Origin: an uncultured Porphyromonadaceae bacterium
GTDB lineage: Bacteria; Bacteroidota; Bacteroidia; Bacteroidales; Muribaculaceae
Assembly: GCA_900541555.1 (NCBI GenBank)
Contig: UQKE01000015.1
Coordinates: 1-39,587, forward strand
Direction: 5' to 3'
DNA length: 39,587 bases
Part shown: positions 3,375 through 39,587 of the stretch, one piece after another
How the letters are laid out: each line of letters opens with the position of its first letter
Numbering within the stretch: position 1 is the first letter of the stretch
Program-made: the position numbers and the translations under genes
Notes under the pieces: model-generated
What the model was told of the DNA's origin: nothing
The model's database searches: none
Seen by the model: the letters and a program-made list of their open reading frames with translations, nothing else

Positions 3375-4748
3375 TCACATAAGCAGTTTGTCCAAATCTT
3401 TCGTGTTGGCTGCAACTTGCTCGTCGGTCACTTGATAGTCCGACAAGTCGCCCGAAAGGTATTGGTCGTAGGCTGCCATGTCGATCAACCCGTGTCCCGA
3501 AAGATTGAACAAAATCACCTTCCGCTCTCCGCTTTCCTTTGCCGCTTTCGCTTCGCGGATTGCAGCAGCTATCGCATGCGACGATTCCGGTGCAGGAATG
3601 ATGCCTTCCGTGCGAGCAAAAGTCAGCGCGGCAGCAAACGTTTCCAATTGAGGAATGTCGACAGCCTCGACATATCCGTCTTCTTTCAATTTGCTCACGA
3701 TGGAGCCCGCACCGTGATAGCGCAAGCCTCCGGCGTGAATATGGGCCGGCGCGAAATCATGTCCCAGCGTGCACATCGGGATCAACGGCGTATAGCCGGC
3801 TTCATCGCCATAATCATAGTGAAACACGCCTCGCGTCAGTTTCGGACACGATTGCGGCTCGGCTGCCACAAACCGCGTCTGCCGCCCGTCGAAAAAGTTG
3901 TGGCGCAAAAACGGGAAAGATATGCCCGAGAAATTGCTGCCGCCGCCAAAACAGCCGATCACCACGTCGGGATATTCCCCTGCCATTTCCATTTGCTTCT
4001 CAGACTCCAATCCGATTACCGTCTGGTGAAGAGCCACATGGTTCAGCACAGACCCTAAGGTGTATTTGCAATTGGGAGTGGACATCGCCAATTCGACTGC
4101 CTCGGAAATTGCCGTGCCGAGAGAACCCTGATAAGTCGGATTGTCCGTAATTATTTTCCGCCCTGCCTTTGTCGACATGCTCGGCGAAGCAATCACTTCC
4201 GCGCCGTAAGTTTGCATGATAGAGCGGCGATAAGGCTTCTGATTGTAAGACACTTTCACCATGTACACCGCCAACGACAGCCCGAAATGGCGCGCCGCCA
4301 ACGACAATGCTGCGCCCCATTGGCCGGCACCGGTTTCCGTCGTGATGTTTGTCACGCCTTGTTTTTTGCAATAATACGCTTGCGGTATCGCCGAATTCAA
4401 CTTATGCGAACCCACAGGGCTGACGCTTTCATTTTTAAAATAAATATGAGCCGGCGTGTCCAATTCTTTTTCCAACCCGCGGGCACGCACCAACGGCGTC
4501 GGGCGCCATATCTTGTACATGTCGCGCACCTCTTCCGGTATTTCTATCCATCGATCCGTATCGTTCATTTCCTGCCGCGACACTTCTTCAGAAAACAACG
4601 GAAACAAATCCTCGGCCTTCAACGGCTTCTTCGTGGCAGGATCAAGCAACGGAAGCGGCTTCGACGGCATGTCGGCCACCACGTTGTACCAAGCTTCGGG
4701 TATATCTTTTTCTTGCAAGAAAAATTTCTTTGATTCTTCGGTTTTCAT
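3375..4748 (-). CDS. trpB: TrpB2-type tryptophan synthase beta chain
   Basis: A 457-residue PLP enzyme that condenses indole with serine to give tryptophan. The PLP lysine sits in SPVGSHKLNSA (about residue 115), followed by TTETGAGQWG and the phosphate-binding loop CFGGGSNFSG. Length and motifs fit the TrpB2 subgroup rather than the TrpA-coupled TrpB1 (about 400 residues). The reading frame stays open far upstream, but the family N-terminus (MKTEESKKFF) starts at the ATG at 4748, close after a -7 element. No trpA or other trp gene is nearby, so it probably acts as a stand-alone indole-salvaging synthase, an inference from the family. It ends 85 bp before the tmRNA 5' end on the same strand. 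Confidence 0.93.
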   Translation of the reverse strand: MKTEESKKFFLQEKDIPEAWYNVVADMPSKPLPLLDPATKKPLKAEDLFPLFSEEVSRQEMNDTDRWIEIPEEVRDMYKIWRPTPLVRARGLEKELDTPAHIYFKNESVSPVGSHKLNSAIPQAYYCKKQGVTNITTETGAGQWGAALSLAARHFGLSLAVYMVKVSYNQKPYRRSIMQTYGAEVIASPSMSTKAGRKIITDNPTYQGSLGTAISEAVELAMSTPNCKYTLGSVLNHVALHQTVIGLESEKQMEMAGEYPDVVIGCFGGGSNFSGISFPFLRHNFFDGRQTRFVAAEPQSCPKLTRGVFHYDYGDEAGYTPLIPMCTLGHDFAPAHIHAGGLRYHGAGSIVSKLKEDGYVEAVDIPQLETFAAALTFARTEGIIPAPESSHAIAAAIREAKAAKESGERKVILFNLSGHGLIDMAAYDQYLSGDLSDYQVTDEQVAANTKDLDKLLM

Positions 4749-4787
4749 AATTACTGCATTTTTATTCGTTATAATTGTTTGTTTATG

Positions 4788-4795
4788 CAAATATA
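4788..4795 (-). promoter_or_regulatory. -7 element for trpB
   Basis: TATATTTG on the minus strand, about 40 nt before the ATG at 4748. It supports that start over the longer open frame. Confidence 0.55.
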
Positions 4796-4925
4796 TAGCA
4801 TTTTTATCTATAAACAAACATTTTCTCCTATTTTTTGCACTAAAATTCATTTTTCTCATCCATCCGCATTTTTGCGACCCCAAAAATCGGGCAAAAACGC
4901 AATCGCCCGACAAACATGCGCAACA

Positions 4926-4957
4926 TTTGTATTTTTTGAGAAAAATCGATATCTTTA
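4926..4957 (+). promoter_or_regulatory. Promoter of the nfeD-SPFH operon
   Basis: TTTG (4926-4929), a 20-bp spacer and TATCTTTA (4950-4957) give a near-consensus promoter about 30 nt before the nfeD start. Confidence 0.7.
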
Positions 4958-4986
4958 CAAAACAATTACCATTCAAACCTGACATT

Positions 4987-5433
4987 ATGGAAGAATTTGT
5001 TTCAAATTGGCTGTTTTGGCTCATTCTGGCAGCACTTATGACCGTAATCGAATTGCTGACCAATACTTTTGCATTCTTCTGCCTTGTGGGCGGCTGCCTC
5101 GTCGCGCTAATTGTCGAGATTCTGGGATTCGGGCTTGAAGCGCAACTTCTCGGCGCAGCCATAGGCACAGTCGTTGCGTTCATTGCATTCTTGCCACTCA
5201 TGCGAAAGCATCGGGCGGAACAGCAATCCGGCGCATCGCCGAGCAACATGGATGCACTGATCGGGCGCACGACAGTTGTTGTCCAACCCGTTGAAGCCGG
5301 CAAAATGGGACGTGCCAAAATCGATGGCGACAACTGGCAAATACGCTCGGCCGACAATTCGGCGATCAATGCCGGCGAACAAGTGCGCGTCGTCGGATAC
5401 GATAGCATTATCCTGACCGTGGAACGAATCTGA
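4987..5433 (+). CDS. NfeD-like membrane protein
   Basis: A 148-residue NfeD family protein. Two or three membrane segments occupy residues 8-75 (WLFWLILAALMTVIELL, then FAFFCLVGGCLVALIVEIL, then an Ala/Gly-rich helix). A soluble C-terminal OB-fold follows (about residues 92-148), with the characteristic start LIGRTTVVVQPVEAGKMGRAKIDG and a final beta strand ILTVERI. NfeD proteins pair with SPFH (stomatin/flotillin) proteins in membrane quality control or raft-like assemblies. The SPFH gene starts 32 bp downstream, so the two form an operon. The ATG at 4987 is the first after the promoter and starts with a short charged stretch before the first helix. It is the short NfeD form without a serine protease domain. 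Confidence 0.9.
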   Translation: MEEFVSNWLFWLILAALMTVIELLTNTFAFFCLVGGCLVALIVEILGFGLEAQLLGAAIGTVVAFIAFLPLMRKHRAEQQSGASPSNMDALIGRTTVVVQPVEAGKMGRAKIDGDNWQIRSADNSAINAGEQVRVVGYDSIILTVERI

Positions 5434-7668: not shown

Positions 7669-7752
7669 TTACCTTTGTATAAGATAAGCTGCATCTCGGC
7701 ATAACCGCTCAAGCAAGCTTGGCGCTTCTGCACTCGATTTGCGTTATCTTTG
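7669..7752 (+). repeat. Single 75-bp promoter repeat unit, flanked by two -7 elements
   Basis: One copy of the 75-bp repeat found as tandem arrays near 19.4 kb and 39.5 kb. It runs from TTACCTTTG (7669-7677) to TTATCTTTG (7744-7752), exactly 75 bp apart. Inside are a GCTGCATCTCGGCATAA segment, a short palindrome built on CAAGC/GCTTG, and a GCGCTTCTGC segment before the terminal -7 element. The right-hand element points at the epimerase gene, 21 nt from its ATG. The stretch 7417-7668 upstream holds no gene I can support. Confidence 0.85.
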
Positions 7753-7773
7753 TATAAAAGAAGCGATTTGGAT

Positions 7774-14805: not shown

Positions 14806-14834
14806 CCGAATGCTTTTTATGTTAGATATCTTTG

Positions 14835-14842
14835 CAAAGGTA
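14835..14842 (-). promoter_or_regulatory. -7 element of the namZ operon, resembling the 75-bp repeat end
   Basis: TACCTTTG on the minus strand. The 25 bp ending here (GCACTCGATTTG, two bases, then TTACCTTTGCA on the minus strand) match the end of the repeat unit at 7729-7753 almost exactly, although the rest of the repeat is absent. Confidence 0.65.
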
Positions 14843-14979
14843 ACACAAATCGAGTGCAATGCAATCAAGATGCTCGAATTTGTTGCCCCAAGACGCATTT
14901 GCCAATACACGAAACAACGCAATAATCGGCGGGGTTTTCCGTTTTTATTTACAGTAAGATATCTCTAATCCAATTTGTC

Positions 14980-18719: not shown

Positions 18720-19328
18720 CTATTTTTTACCGTAAAGCACGGGATTCGTGTCAGCGTCGTTGTACATTTTCATTTGACGATACACTTTCATGTATTTTCG
18801 TCCGGCGGCAATGTCGTCGAGCAACGTGGCGATAGCATCCGACAAGTCTTTCTTCTGTTCAAGAAGCACATTGAGCTTTGCGGCACATTTTGCCTTATGT
18901 TCGGGCGAAGCGTCGGTGCGTTCTGCTTCCTGCCTCATGTGATAAATCTTCAATGCCAAAATCGACAAGCGGTCGATGGCCCAAGCGGGACTTTCCGTGT
19001 TGATCGAAGCATCGGCTTTCGGAGTTACATCCTTGTACAAGTCGCGGAAATAAGAATCGATATCTTCCACGAGGTCTGTACGGTCTTGATTGGACTTGTC
19101 TATCCGCCGCTTCAACGCAAGCGCATCCACCGGATTGATTTCCGGATCGCGAATAATATCCTCCATGTGCCACTGCACCGCGTCAATCCAATTCTTACGA
19201 AACAACACGGCATCGATCGAGTCCGATCCGTGCGGATTTTCGACAACGGCATCTATATTGTCATACTCATGATAAAGGCGCGTCGCCTCATCAAATATCT
19301 GATTGCATTTTTCTACGAAAGTATTCAT
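18720..19328 (-). CDS. DUF4254 protein
   Basis: A 202-residue, mostly helical cytoplasmic protein without signal peptide or membrane segments. It has FVEKCNQIFDEATRLYHEYDNID near the N-terminus, then NWIDAVQWHMEDIIRDP and SPAWAIDRLSILALKIYHMR, which fit DUF4254. The function is unknown. In Bacteroidota it is usually next to a heptosyltransferase gene (from memory), as here where GT9 starts 17 bp after its stop, so a link to LPS core assembly is plausible. The ATG at 19328 lies 24 nt after a -7 element contributed by the repeat array. Confidence 0.82.
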   Translation of the reverse strand: MNTFVEKCNQIFDEATRLYHEYDNIDAVVENPHGSDSIDAVLFRKNWIDAVQWHMEDIIRDPEINPVDALALKRRIDKSNQDRTDLVEDIDSYFRDLYKDVTPKADASINTESPAWAIDRLSILALKIYHMRQEAERTDASPEHKAKCAAKLNVLLEQKKDLSDAIATLLDDIAAGRKYMKVYRQMKMYNDADTNPVLYGKK

Positions 19329-19352
19329 CTGTCTTATTTTTATGGTTTGTAG

Positions 19353-19520
19353 GCAAAAATAATGCAAATCGAAAGCAGAAGCGCCAAACTTGTTTGAGCG
19401 ATTATGCCGAGATGCAGCTTATCTTATGCAAAGATACCGCAAATCGAGAGCAGAAGCGCCAAACTCGTTTGGGCGATTATGCCGAGATGCAGCTTATCTT
19501 ATGCAAAGATACTATCTTTG
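19353..19520 (-). repeat. Tandem 75-bp promoter repeats (two units)
   Basis: Three -7-like elements on the minus strand begin at 19353, 19428 and 19503, exactly 75 bp apart, with two full units between them. Each unit has CGATTTGC next to the -7 element, a GCGCTTCTGC segment, a palindrome (CAAAC-TT-GTTTG in one unit, CCAAAC-TC-GTTTGG in the other) and GCTGCATCTCGGCATAA. The leftmost element drives the DUF4254 operon. At the right edge the element at 19503-19511 is mirrored by TATCTTTG at 19513-19520 on the plus strand, a 17-bp palindrome with back-to-back -7 elements. Small reading frames across the array (DYAEMQLILCKDT per period) are repeat translations, not genes. Confidence 0.9.
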
Positions 19521-19659
19521 TTTCAAAAGAAAAAGGTGTAGATTTGAATATTAAAAAGATAGATAGAAATTCCGCCTTTTCAGCGTGGCGATATGCAATC
19601 GTCGAAAGAATGATTGAAAGAAAAATCATCTTGACACCCTTAATAATCAAAAAAACGTG

Positions 19660-33489: not shown

Positions 33490-33789
33490 AGTGTCTTGTA
33501 TTTTCGTGTAAACTTATAAATTATCCGCCTATAAAACAAATTTTCCCACCCCGTCAAACATTAAATCTTCATAAACCGCGACAATAGGACAAAATATGTT
33601 CCTTTCAAACGATTTTGCCAACGCTTGGTTGATCGTCTCTCAACTTTTGCGTACCTTTGCCGCCGTATTAACAATGTGGAAAAATTTGGCTGCTTGCAAC
33701 CACATAAAAAAATGCTAAAACTGCAAAAACGAAATTTCCCATTTTCTTTTCGTCAGATTTAGCTTTTTCCACTAAAAAATAATGGAAAA
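33490..33789. other. Intergenic region with metK promoter and long leader
   Basis: 300 bp between divergent genes. The plus-strand promoter is at 33628-33659. On the minus strand TAAGTTTA near 33512 is a weak -7 candidate for the AAA/TOPRIM gene. The metK leader (about 33667-33789) contains a 6-bp ATGTGG/CCACAT inverted pair. No known riboswitch is recognised. Confidence 0.5.
33628..33659 (+). promoter_or_regulatory. metK promoter
   Basis: GTTG (33628-33631), a 20-bp spacer and TACCTTTG (33652-33659), a near-consensus Bacteroidota promoter. The start codon is about 130 nt downstream. Confidence 0.65.
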
Positions 33790-39409: not shown

Positions 39410-39587
39410 GCAAAGGTAATGCAAGCCGAGAGAAGAACAATCAAGCTTGCTTGAAATTGTTATTCCGAGGCGCAGCTTACCTTATGCAAAGGTACACAAG
39501 CCGAGAGAAGAACAATCAAGCTTGCTTGAAATTGTTATTCCGAGGCGCAGCTTACCTTATGCAAAGGTACACAAGCCGAGAGAAGAA
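39410..39587 (-). repeat. Tandem 75-bp promoter repeats, running off the window
   Basis: -7-like elements on the minus strand (CAAAGGTA on the plus strand) begin at 39411, 39487 and 39562, spaced 76 and 75 bp. The unit contains CAAGCCGAGAG, a palindrome TCAAGC-TT-GCTTGA, and CCGAGGCGCAGCTTACCTTA. Compared with the other arrays the flanks differ but period, palindrome core and -7 element persist. The innermost element lies about 95 nt before the choice-of-anchor J start and points at it. The window ends inside the third unit. Confidence 0.9.

Follow-up and report, generated by a model that had tools for sequence, protein, structure and literature searches.

Promoter sequences repeated before unrelated genes have reportedly been described by Matus-Garcia et al. 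and by Nijveen et al. (2012) as putative mobile promoters, defined by shared upstream sequence and discussed under the name of "promoter propagation"; we know of no element among them with a defined structure, a defined target and an empty site. In Bacteroides, insertion sequences also bring promoters: these are kilobase-size, transposase-coding elements whose upstream insertion supplies a -7 box. The repeat unit described here shares with the putative mobile promoters the repetition of a promoter sequence before unrelated genes, and with the promoter-bringing insertion sequences the supply of a -7 box, but it codes for nothing.

In form, the closest described systems are short palindromic and miniature elements. 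BrickBuilt and other MITEs of P. gingivalis, as characterised in the parts of PMC4596501 drawn on here, contain tandem repeats (in BrickBuilt a 23-bp minisatellite inside a longer MITE), lie 49-591 nt from genes, are bidirectional, and include segments with promoter activity in a reporter. To the extent covered by those parts, the present unit shares with them occurrence in Bacteroidales, intergenic position, lack of coding capacity and inverted repeats, whereas BrickBuilt belongs mainly to one species and the present unit is a single hairpin of about 75 bp found in many genera of the order. Unlike BrickBuilt as portrayed there (PMC4596501), the unit stands 3' of a -7 box and is co-oriented with the gene, and its identity with the 23-bp BrickBuilt repeat was rejected. 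REPs are presented in the sections of PMC3733652 used here as palindromes of 20-40 bp with GTAG or CGTC tags; like REP and REPIN sequences, the unit is short palindromic DNA in many copies, with a single-strand hairpin and tandem or clustered arrangement, but in comparison with that partial account it is untagged, longer, placed at promoters and not constantly associated with a Y1 transposase. Palindromic RNA candidates in Bacteroidetes are mentioned in PMC8040213. Finally, the sigma-ABfr -7/-33 motif, with the -7 box TAnnTTTG, precedes 81% of primary transcription start sites in B. thetaiotaomicron according to the portion of PMC7366714 consulted, and TAnnTTTG is therefore treated below as a promoter box; the sigma-ABfr promoter of that source is the target of the unit and the module it carries, not the element itself.

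The units are probably best described as a hairpin DNA element that stands mostly directly behind the -7 boxes of unrelated Bacteroidales genes, that was likely transposed there, and that usually carries a gene-side -7 box which would keep the gene transcribed.

Repeat units at gene starts in the window

The window, that is, the whole 39,587-nt stretch of contig UQKE01000015.1 analysed here, holds five full units of 75-76 bp at three loci, each upstream of a co-oriented gene start. The features are given below, with scores from an nhmmer profile of the unit and from R1, a covariance model built from 41 distinct units.

7669..7753, + strand: single unit before the epimerase gene (ATG 7774); R1 95.2 bits, nhmmer 70.3 bits
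7670-7677, + strand: left box of the epimerase unit, TACCTTTG
7681-7687, + strand: 5' arm of the epimerase unit, AAGATAA
7744-7750, + strand: 3' arm of the epimerase unit, TTATCTT
7745-7752, + strand: right box of the epimerase unit, TATCTTTG
14834..14897, - strand: decayed unit before the NamZ gene, its 3' half recognisable, TTGCACTCGATTTGTGTTACCTTTGC; nhmmer 24.2 bits, E 7e-7
19353..19437, - strand: gene-proximal unit of the array before the DUF4254 gene, terminal box TATTTTTG; R1 94.2 bits, nhmmer 64.7 bits
19428..19512, - strand: gene-distal unit of the same two-unit array; nhmmer 65.1 bits
39410..39495, - strand: gene-proximal unit of the array before the choice-of-anchor J gene; R1 94.8 bits
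39486..39570, - strand: second unit of the choice-of-anchor J array, its TACC box pairing with AAGGTA; nhmmer 51.5 bits
39561..39587, - strand: outermost (third) unit of the choice-of-anchor J array, truncated where the window ends; third box at 39569

The TAnnTTTG boxes start at 7670 and 7745 on the + strand (spacing 75 bp), at 19511, 19436 and 19361 on the - strand (75 and 75 bp), and at 39569, 39494 and 39418 on the - strand (75 and 76 bp). These coordinates bear out the initial annotation, which had reported a 75-bp periodicity with one interval of 76 bp at three loci and copy numbers of one, two and at least two; the last locus has two units and the truncated third. The shared internal layout that it had proposed holds as well: a unit runs from a -7 box through TAAGATAAGCTGCATCTCGGCATAA, a variable palindrome and TTCTGCTCTCGATTTGCAT to the next -7 box, and the five full units reach 51-70 bits with the nhmmer profile against at most 11.5 bits in 20 order-2 shuffles of the window. 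Its list of loci was right for these three and had missed both the hairpin that spans the unit and the decayed copy at 14834..14897, which lies 28 nt from the ATG (14805-14803) of a gene for a NamZ exo-beta-N-acetylmuramidase and which exceeds the best shuffled match of 11.5 bits.

The genes behind the full units encode an NAD-dependent epimerase, a DUF4254 protein and a choice-of-anchor J protein; on the same strand, the DUF4254 gene is followed by a family 9 glycosyltransferase gene and then by a RuvB gene. The distances from terminal box to start codon that had been noted, 21 nt for the epimerase and 24 nt for the DUF4254 gene, stand, while at the 39.4-kb array the 95 nt noted lead to a start that by eye resembles that of a signal peptide and an in-frame ATG lies further upstream, at 22 nt from the box. 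Two other features of the window were recorded in passing. A SAM-II riboswitch at 33670-33728 (+) directly precedes an S-adenosylmethionine synthetase gene, and a TrpB-like enzyme of 677 aa is encoded at 3375-5408 (-), where the match begins only at residue 226, so the true start may be well inside the longest ORF.

A hairpin with covarying arms

In single-sequence predictions, most units fold to one long imperfect hairpin. At its base the first letters, AAGATAA, pair with the last, TTATCTT, so that the -7 box forms the 3' arm; a few of the 41 units, e.g., L001:5645, L011 and L017, prefer another fold. Changes in the two free letters of the box are matched in the 5' arm: the unit at 39410..39495 has AAGGTAA..TTACCTT in place of AAGATAA..TTATCTT, with both arms altered, and elsewhere the pairs AATATAG/CTATATT, AAGTTAA/TTAACTT and AAGAAAA/TTTTCTT occur. 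The -33 region of the unit, inspected by eye, has no clear TTTG.

The pairing was quantified on two alignments. The seed alignment, A1, comprises the 41 distinct units aligned by MAFFT without structure (identical units kept once, 5 units without a recognised downstream box skipped); in it 92.8% of cells pair, and changes on both sides of a pair occur in 73 cells against 21.5 in shuffles. The second alignment, A2, draws its 113 distinct rows from the window and three genomes, and some loci occur in both alignments; its covariation score is 0.341 against 0.144 when shuffled and at most 0.071 with slid partners, a comparison that the slid controls flatter because A2 was fitted to the model.

Strong covariation, together with the mostly sense orientation of the units, is what a cis-acting structured RNA would offer: transcribed from a native promoter, the unit would put into the 5' leader a hairpin that controls or stabilises the mRNA, and it would be kept before genes by selection. 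Transcription likely begins a few nucleotides after TTTG, and if so the leader would start at the 5' arm of the hairpin. We nevertheless regard this explanation as distinctly unlikely. RNA kept on one strand should favour G-U over A-C, and the two are close to balance in the seed alignment (21 vs 19 cells in inner pairs, 37 vs 30 in all pairs) as in A2, which was fitted to the structure (78 vs 69 in inner pairs, 13 vs 26 in the base stem). With no excess of G-U, the pairing is taken to be a property of the DNA, a conclusion that may be given moderate weight, and a reading of the hairpin as RNA only was rejected, there being no strand bias in the 113 rows of A2 or the 41 seed rows. A known RNA family was likewise rejected: none of the three Rfam matches in the window at gathering threshold is a unit, and a search over 19300-19560 returned nothing at E<=1. 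The genes downstream share no common function, and at L198-L200, L248, L249 and L272 the 5' half of the unit has been lost and the half with the -7 box kept, which also speaks against a selected leader structure.

Placement behind promoter boxes

The surroundings of the units were examined in 80 stretches around part of the genome-wide matches: 40 from G001, an uncultured Muribaculaceae MAG, 20 from G010, Bacteroides timonensis, and 20 from G006, Xylanibacter rarus. Together with the window they contain 108 arrays, namely 67 single units, 27 doubles and 14 longer ones. After ten arrays below 30 bits had been dropped, 98 were counted, a gene start being defined by a simple ORF rule, not by annotation, as an ATG that opens at least 80 codons.

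A co-oriented start follows within 60 nt in 78/98 arrays, within 100 nt in 84/98 and within 400 nt in 95/98; in the opposite view, from the far end and on the complementary strand, the figures are 9/98, 22/98 and 58/98, and random positions have a start within 60 nt in 20% and within 100 nt in 29% of cases. The reading frame is open for 50 codons on both sides of the unit in only 3 of the 96 arrays that could be tested (the window supplies two of the 3), vs 54% of random stretches. Copies thus lie upstream of genes in the same orientation more often than by chance, and not equally inside genes, as the initial annotation would require; its statement that they sit "only at gene starts" is true of most, with 14/98 arrays having no ORF start within 100 nt. 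The genes concerned are mixed and include those for tRNA synthetases, DNA ligase, topoisomerase, IMP cyclohydrolase and restriction-modification enzymes. Among 84 downstream proteins (cut at 700 aa), the commonest Pfam family accounts for three, and a functional class of target genes was accordingly rejected.

A second regularity concerns the box on the far side of the unit. For 83 arrays the first unit is complete and the flank long enough; in 56 of them the last letter of TAnnTTT directly adjoins the unit's left edge, in 27 no exact TAnnTTT stands there, and any other single offset between -45 and +4 has it in 0-2 of the 83. Where no further unit is visible on the left, TAnnTTT lies within one base of the left-edge offset in 43/62 arrays. 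The right end is TAnnTTTG in 75/83.

Imperfect inverted repeats, no coding capacity and an intergenic position would also suit a MITE-like element without target preference, one that enters many sites and survives only where the insertion keeps a promoter. Selection of this kind is unlikely to have produced the observed pattern by itself: it does not account for a native TAnnTTT that ends exactly at the edge in so many arrays, and among the 14 arrays that lack a start within 100 nt, the left flank could be used in 13, with TAnnTTT at the edge or a single base away from it in 11, so that the box is present even where no gene demands one. Among the 98 arrays, which are no systematic count of copies at neutral places, only three lack a co-oriented ORF start in the next 400 nt.

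Empty and filled sites in relatives

Nine elements of B. timonensis, in five chosen stretches (L134, L136, L143, L145 and L147) that are not a random draw from its 39 matches, were compared within the genus with six relatives picked from search matches. An empty allele was found in at least one relative at 9/9 sites:

L134: empty in G485
L136A: empty in G492 and G496
L136B: empty in G522 and G496
L143.1: empty in G492, G496 and G485
L143.2: empty in G522, G506 and G492
L143.3: empty in G491
L145A: empty in G522 and G485
L145B: empty in G485
L147: empty in G492

Every empty allele listed has a TAnnTTTG box at the site. The 300-350 bp downstream are 97-98.7% identical between filled and empty alleles at three of the nine sites, and the spacing between the final TTTG and the downstream anchor agrees within 6 nt at 8/9 sites and within 3 nt at 7/9; at L136A the stretch between box and gene is too divergent for this comparison. 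The clearest case is L145A, where filled and empty genomes are 98.6% identical over the downstream anchor. There the empty allele reads TATATTTGCAGC and the filled one TATATTTGC-unit-TTATCTTTGCAGC; the two alleles can also be set out as GATATATTTGCAGCTTC (empty) and GATATATTTGC, unit, TTATCTTTGCAGCTTC (filled). The left box is therefore the native, old one, and the right box came with the unit. In general terms, the unit adjoins the native TTT(G) on its 3' side and terminates in a CTTTG that belongs to it; the spacing to the gene is usually almost unchanged.

TTT(G)(C) is found at both ends of the unit, and the left and right boxes differ where the native box differs (L145A, L143.2, L143.3), which assigns most of the right-hand copy to the unit itself; compared with the target-site duplication of a MITE, this end repeat is not a clean duplication of the target. 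The terminal boxes at L143.2 and L143.3, TTTCTTTG and GAACTTTG, are without TA, although they do pair with the start of the unit. The rebuilding of a promoter is hence usual, not obligatory, and the constants, as far as the compared alleles indicate, would be insertion 3' of TTT(G) and the CTTTG end, with a consensus -7 box as the usual case only. The earlier statement that there is a promoter element in every period should be softened to this extent. So should the proposal of mobile promoters: mobility, present or former, agrees with the nine empty sites, but the unit stands immediately behind a -7 box that already existed, so the promoter preceded it and the upstream box belongs to the host.

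For some sites the polarity of the change is doubtful. L143.3 is empty in the close relative G491 and filled in the more distant G492 and G496, which implies that loss or repeated gain also occurs; most of the presence/absence differences would nonetheless seem to be gains. In some genomes only the box-bearing half of the unit survives, its 5' half having been lost (L147, L145B and L136A).

Two of the stretches also contain a second repeat, of about 160-260 bp and distinct from the 75-bp unit, at L143:9564-9825 and L147:2198-2455, possibly one family at the two places. It has many copies in G492, G496 and others, and in relatives it matches both strands at the same places, hence it is palindromic.

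Growth of arrays and repeated use of sites

The units of L143.1 and L145A, two unrelated loci of B. timonensis, are identical over 74 bp. Within arrays, where units follow each other at spacings of about 73-88 bp across genomes, adjacent units are 0.87 alike (mean of 35 pairs, range 0.32-1.0) against 0.65 for 495 sampled non-adjacent pairs from the same genome, and arrays therefore mostly grow in place. Tandem arrays likely grow mostly by local duplication, for which slippage is a likely route, and sometimes by a second insertion of another subfamily.

The likeness of neighbours and the occurrence of two to five units in 41/108 arrays might invite the view that the whole family is a minisatellite, grown by slippage from a promoter that chanced to contain a palindrome. 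This is very improbable. Single units make up 67/108 arrays, the empty sites hold no unit from which slippage could start, and units of different subfamilies stand at one site (L145B; L187). As the origin of single units the minisatellite is refuted, and a plain local tandem repeat was rejected on account of the copies across genomes and the empty sites.

At L145B, two genomes have at the same site a unit of another subfamily, one of them without its 5' half, and at L134 one genome has a second, different unit. Different subfamilies at one promoter, in different genomes or in tandem, were seen at L134 and L187 and at L145B, L254 and L255; such cases are a natural record of repeated use of a site. 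Two further patterns were observed. In the Prevotella MAG SRR5976185_bin.5, three units (L015, L018, L025) lie in a repeated context: the left box is preceded by a similar "TAACGG.." and the right box is followed by sequence that is again similar, as though the unit had been copied as part of a larger segment. In X. rarus (L152-L165), a stretch resembling TTTATTTTGT.TTGCTCTCG..TTGC recurs ahead of the left box of many arrays; it is probably one more diverged type of unit, with a different apical hairpin.

Distribution and the search for a mobilising enzyme

An exact pattern of the conserved core, searched in genomes sampled one per species, matched 27 stretches. By record title these are Bacteroidales (Prevotella and relatives, Paraprevotella, Bacteroides, Mediterranea, Muribaculaceae, Limisoma), plus one MAG labelled Clostridium. 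The contig titled Clostridium sp. (L022) has a complete unit of the Bacteroidales type, and the MAG may be misnamed or mixed. Fourteen of the 27 loci were taken on to a genome-wide search, and because their genomes had been found by the exact pattern they are not a random sample. R1 has 6-74 copies per genome in 14/14 of these motif-bearing Bacteroidales genomes (E<=0.01), figures that are lower bounds, since up to 150 candidates per genome were scored. Among 295 sampled Bacteroidales genomes, 23 match under stricter filters (E<=1e-5, up to 15 candidates scored per genome).

The window's own DUF4254 locus can be followed into relatives. The best orthologues of the protein (82-83%) are in G234, G001 and G005, among 149 sampled genomes of the family of G001. 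The DUF4254 promoter has a diverged unit in G001 and the -7 box alone in G005, a Candidatus Limisoma, and in G274, at 38 and 28 nt before the ATG, respectively, compared with 25 nt in the window (counted by eye).

An origin as a phage or plasmid element was rejected at the sensitivity of the searches made. PLSDB plasmids gave no match to the unit, one scan of IMG/VR gave no exact match of a 20-base core, and only 3/50,697 phage records match, all of them unannotated faecal contigs of 5-13 kb. Among the matches listed in a search of open-licence papers, there was no description of the unit.

Palindromic structure, intergenic position, many copies and balanced pairing on the two strands would also be expected of a REP element moved by a Y1 transposase of the RAYT type, and insertion 3' of a short motif is a habit of IS200/IS605 elements. 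Such a system is improbable here, for the consensus of 41 units has neither a GTAG nor a CGTC end tag, the length is about 73-88 bp instead of 20-40, and the enzyme does not follow the element: in a search for PF01797 (Y1_Tnp) in genomes some of which are drafts, the family was absent from 3/8 element-bearing genomes, one of these three having 61-65 copies, and present in 10/12 genomes without unit matches under the strict filter. A Y1/RAYT system was rejected for want of this constant association. No transposase appears among the 25 families listed of the 177 matched by the 84 downstream proteins, and the search for PF01797 yielded no candidate for the mobilising enzyme.

Discussion

As in MITEs, there are terminal inverted repeats (the AAGATAA/TTATCTT base stem), no coding capacity and many copies; as expected of a mobile promoter, the same promoter sequence stands before unrelated genes and is present or absent in relatives. 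In its manner of working the unit resembles a MITE or REP as well as a mobile promoter. We read it as an unnamed, non-autonomous mobile hairpin element that would target -7 boxes and usually regenerate one, a reading drawn from sequence comparison.

The following course of events may be proposed. The hairpin element would land just 3' of the TTTG of a promoter, with its own CTTTG end facing the gene. The native box would remain intact upstream and transcribe through the hairpin, giving an mRNA with a hairpin leader, and the new box, placed about as far from the start codon as the old one was, would replace or supplement it as a site of initiation; on this account both the native and the new box would initiate transcription. 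The element may move as single-stranded DNA. The -7 region melts in the open complex, and a single-strand route is suggested by pairing without RNA-strand bias combined with a target that melts in the open promoter. It is tempting to go further and to see here a new minimal class of transposable hairpins that is directed at the single-stranded -7 region of sigma-ABfr promoters in their open state, enters 3' of the coding-strand TTTG, ends in its own CTTTG, rebuilds promoters, adds a structured leader and a second promoter, and so rewires expression genome-wide at little cost per insertion. This fuller version is put forward tentatively, its chances being slightly below even.

Part of the tandem -7 boxes seen in these genomes is explained by units of this kind, which also provide natural promoter pairs that differ in the presence of an added box and hairpin leader. 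If the proposed course is correct, the element would spread without silencing the genes before which it lands, and the promoters of an abundant group of gut bacteria would undergo steady remodelling by a unit of about 75 bp that codes for nothing. It would be a concrete case of a mobile element whose choice of target makes insertion nearly harmless, and, if single-strand targeting of open promoters is true, transcription initiation would be directly linked to transposon target choice.
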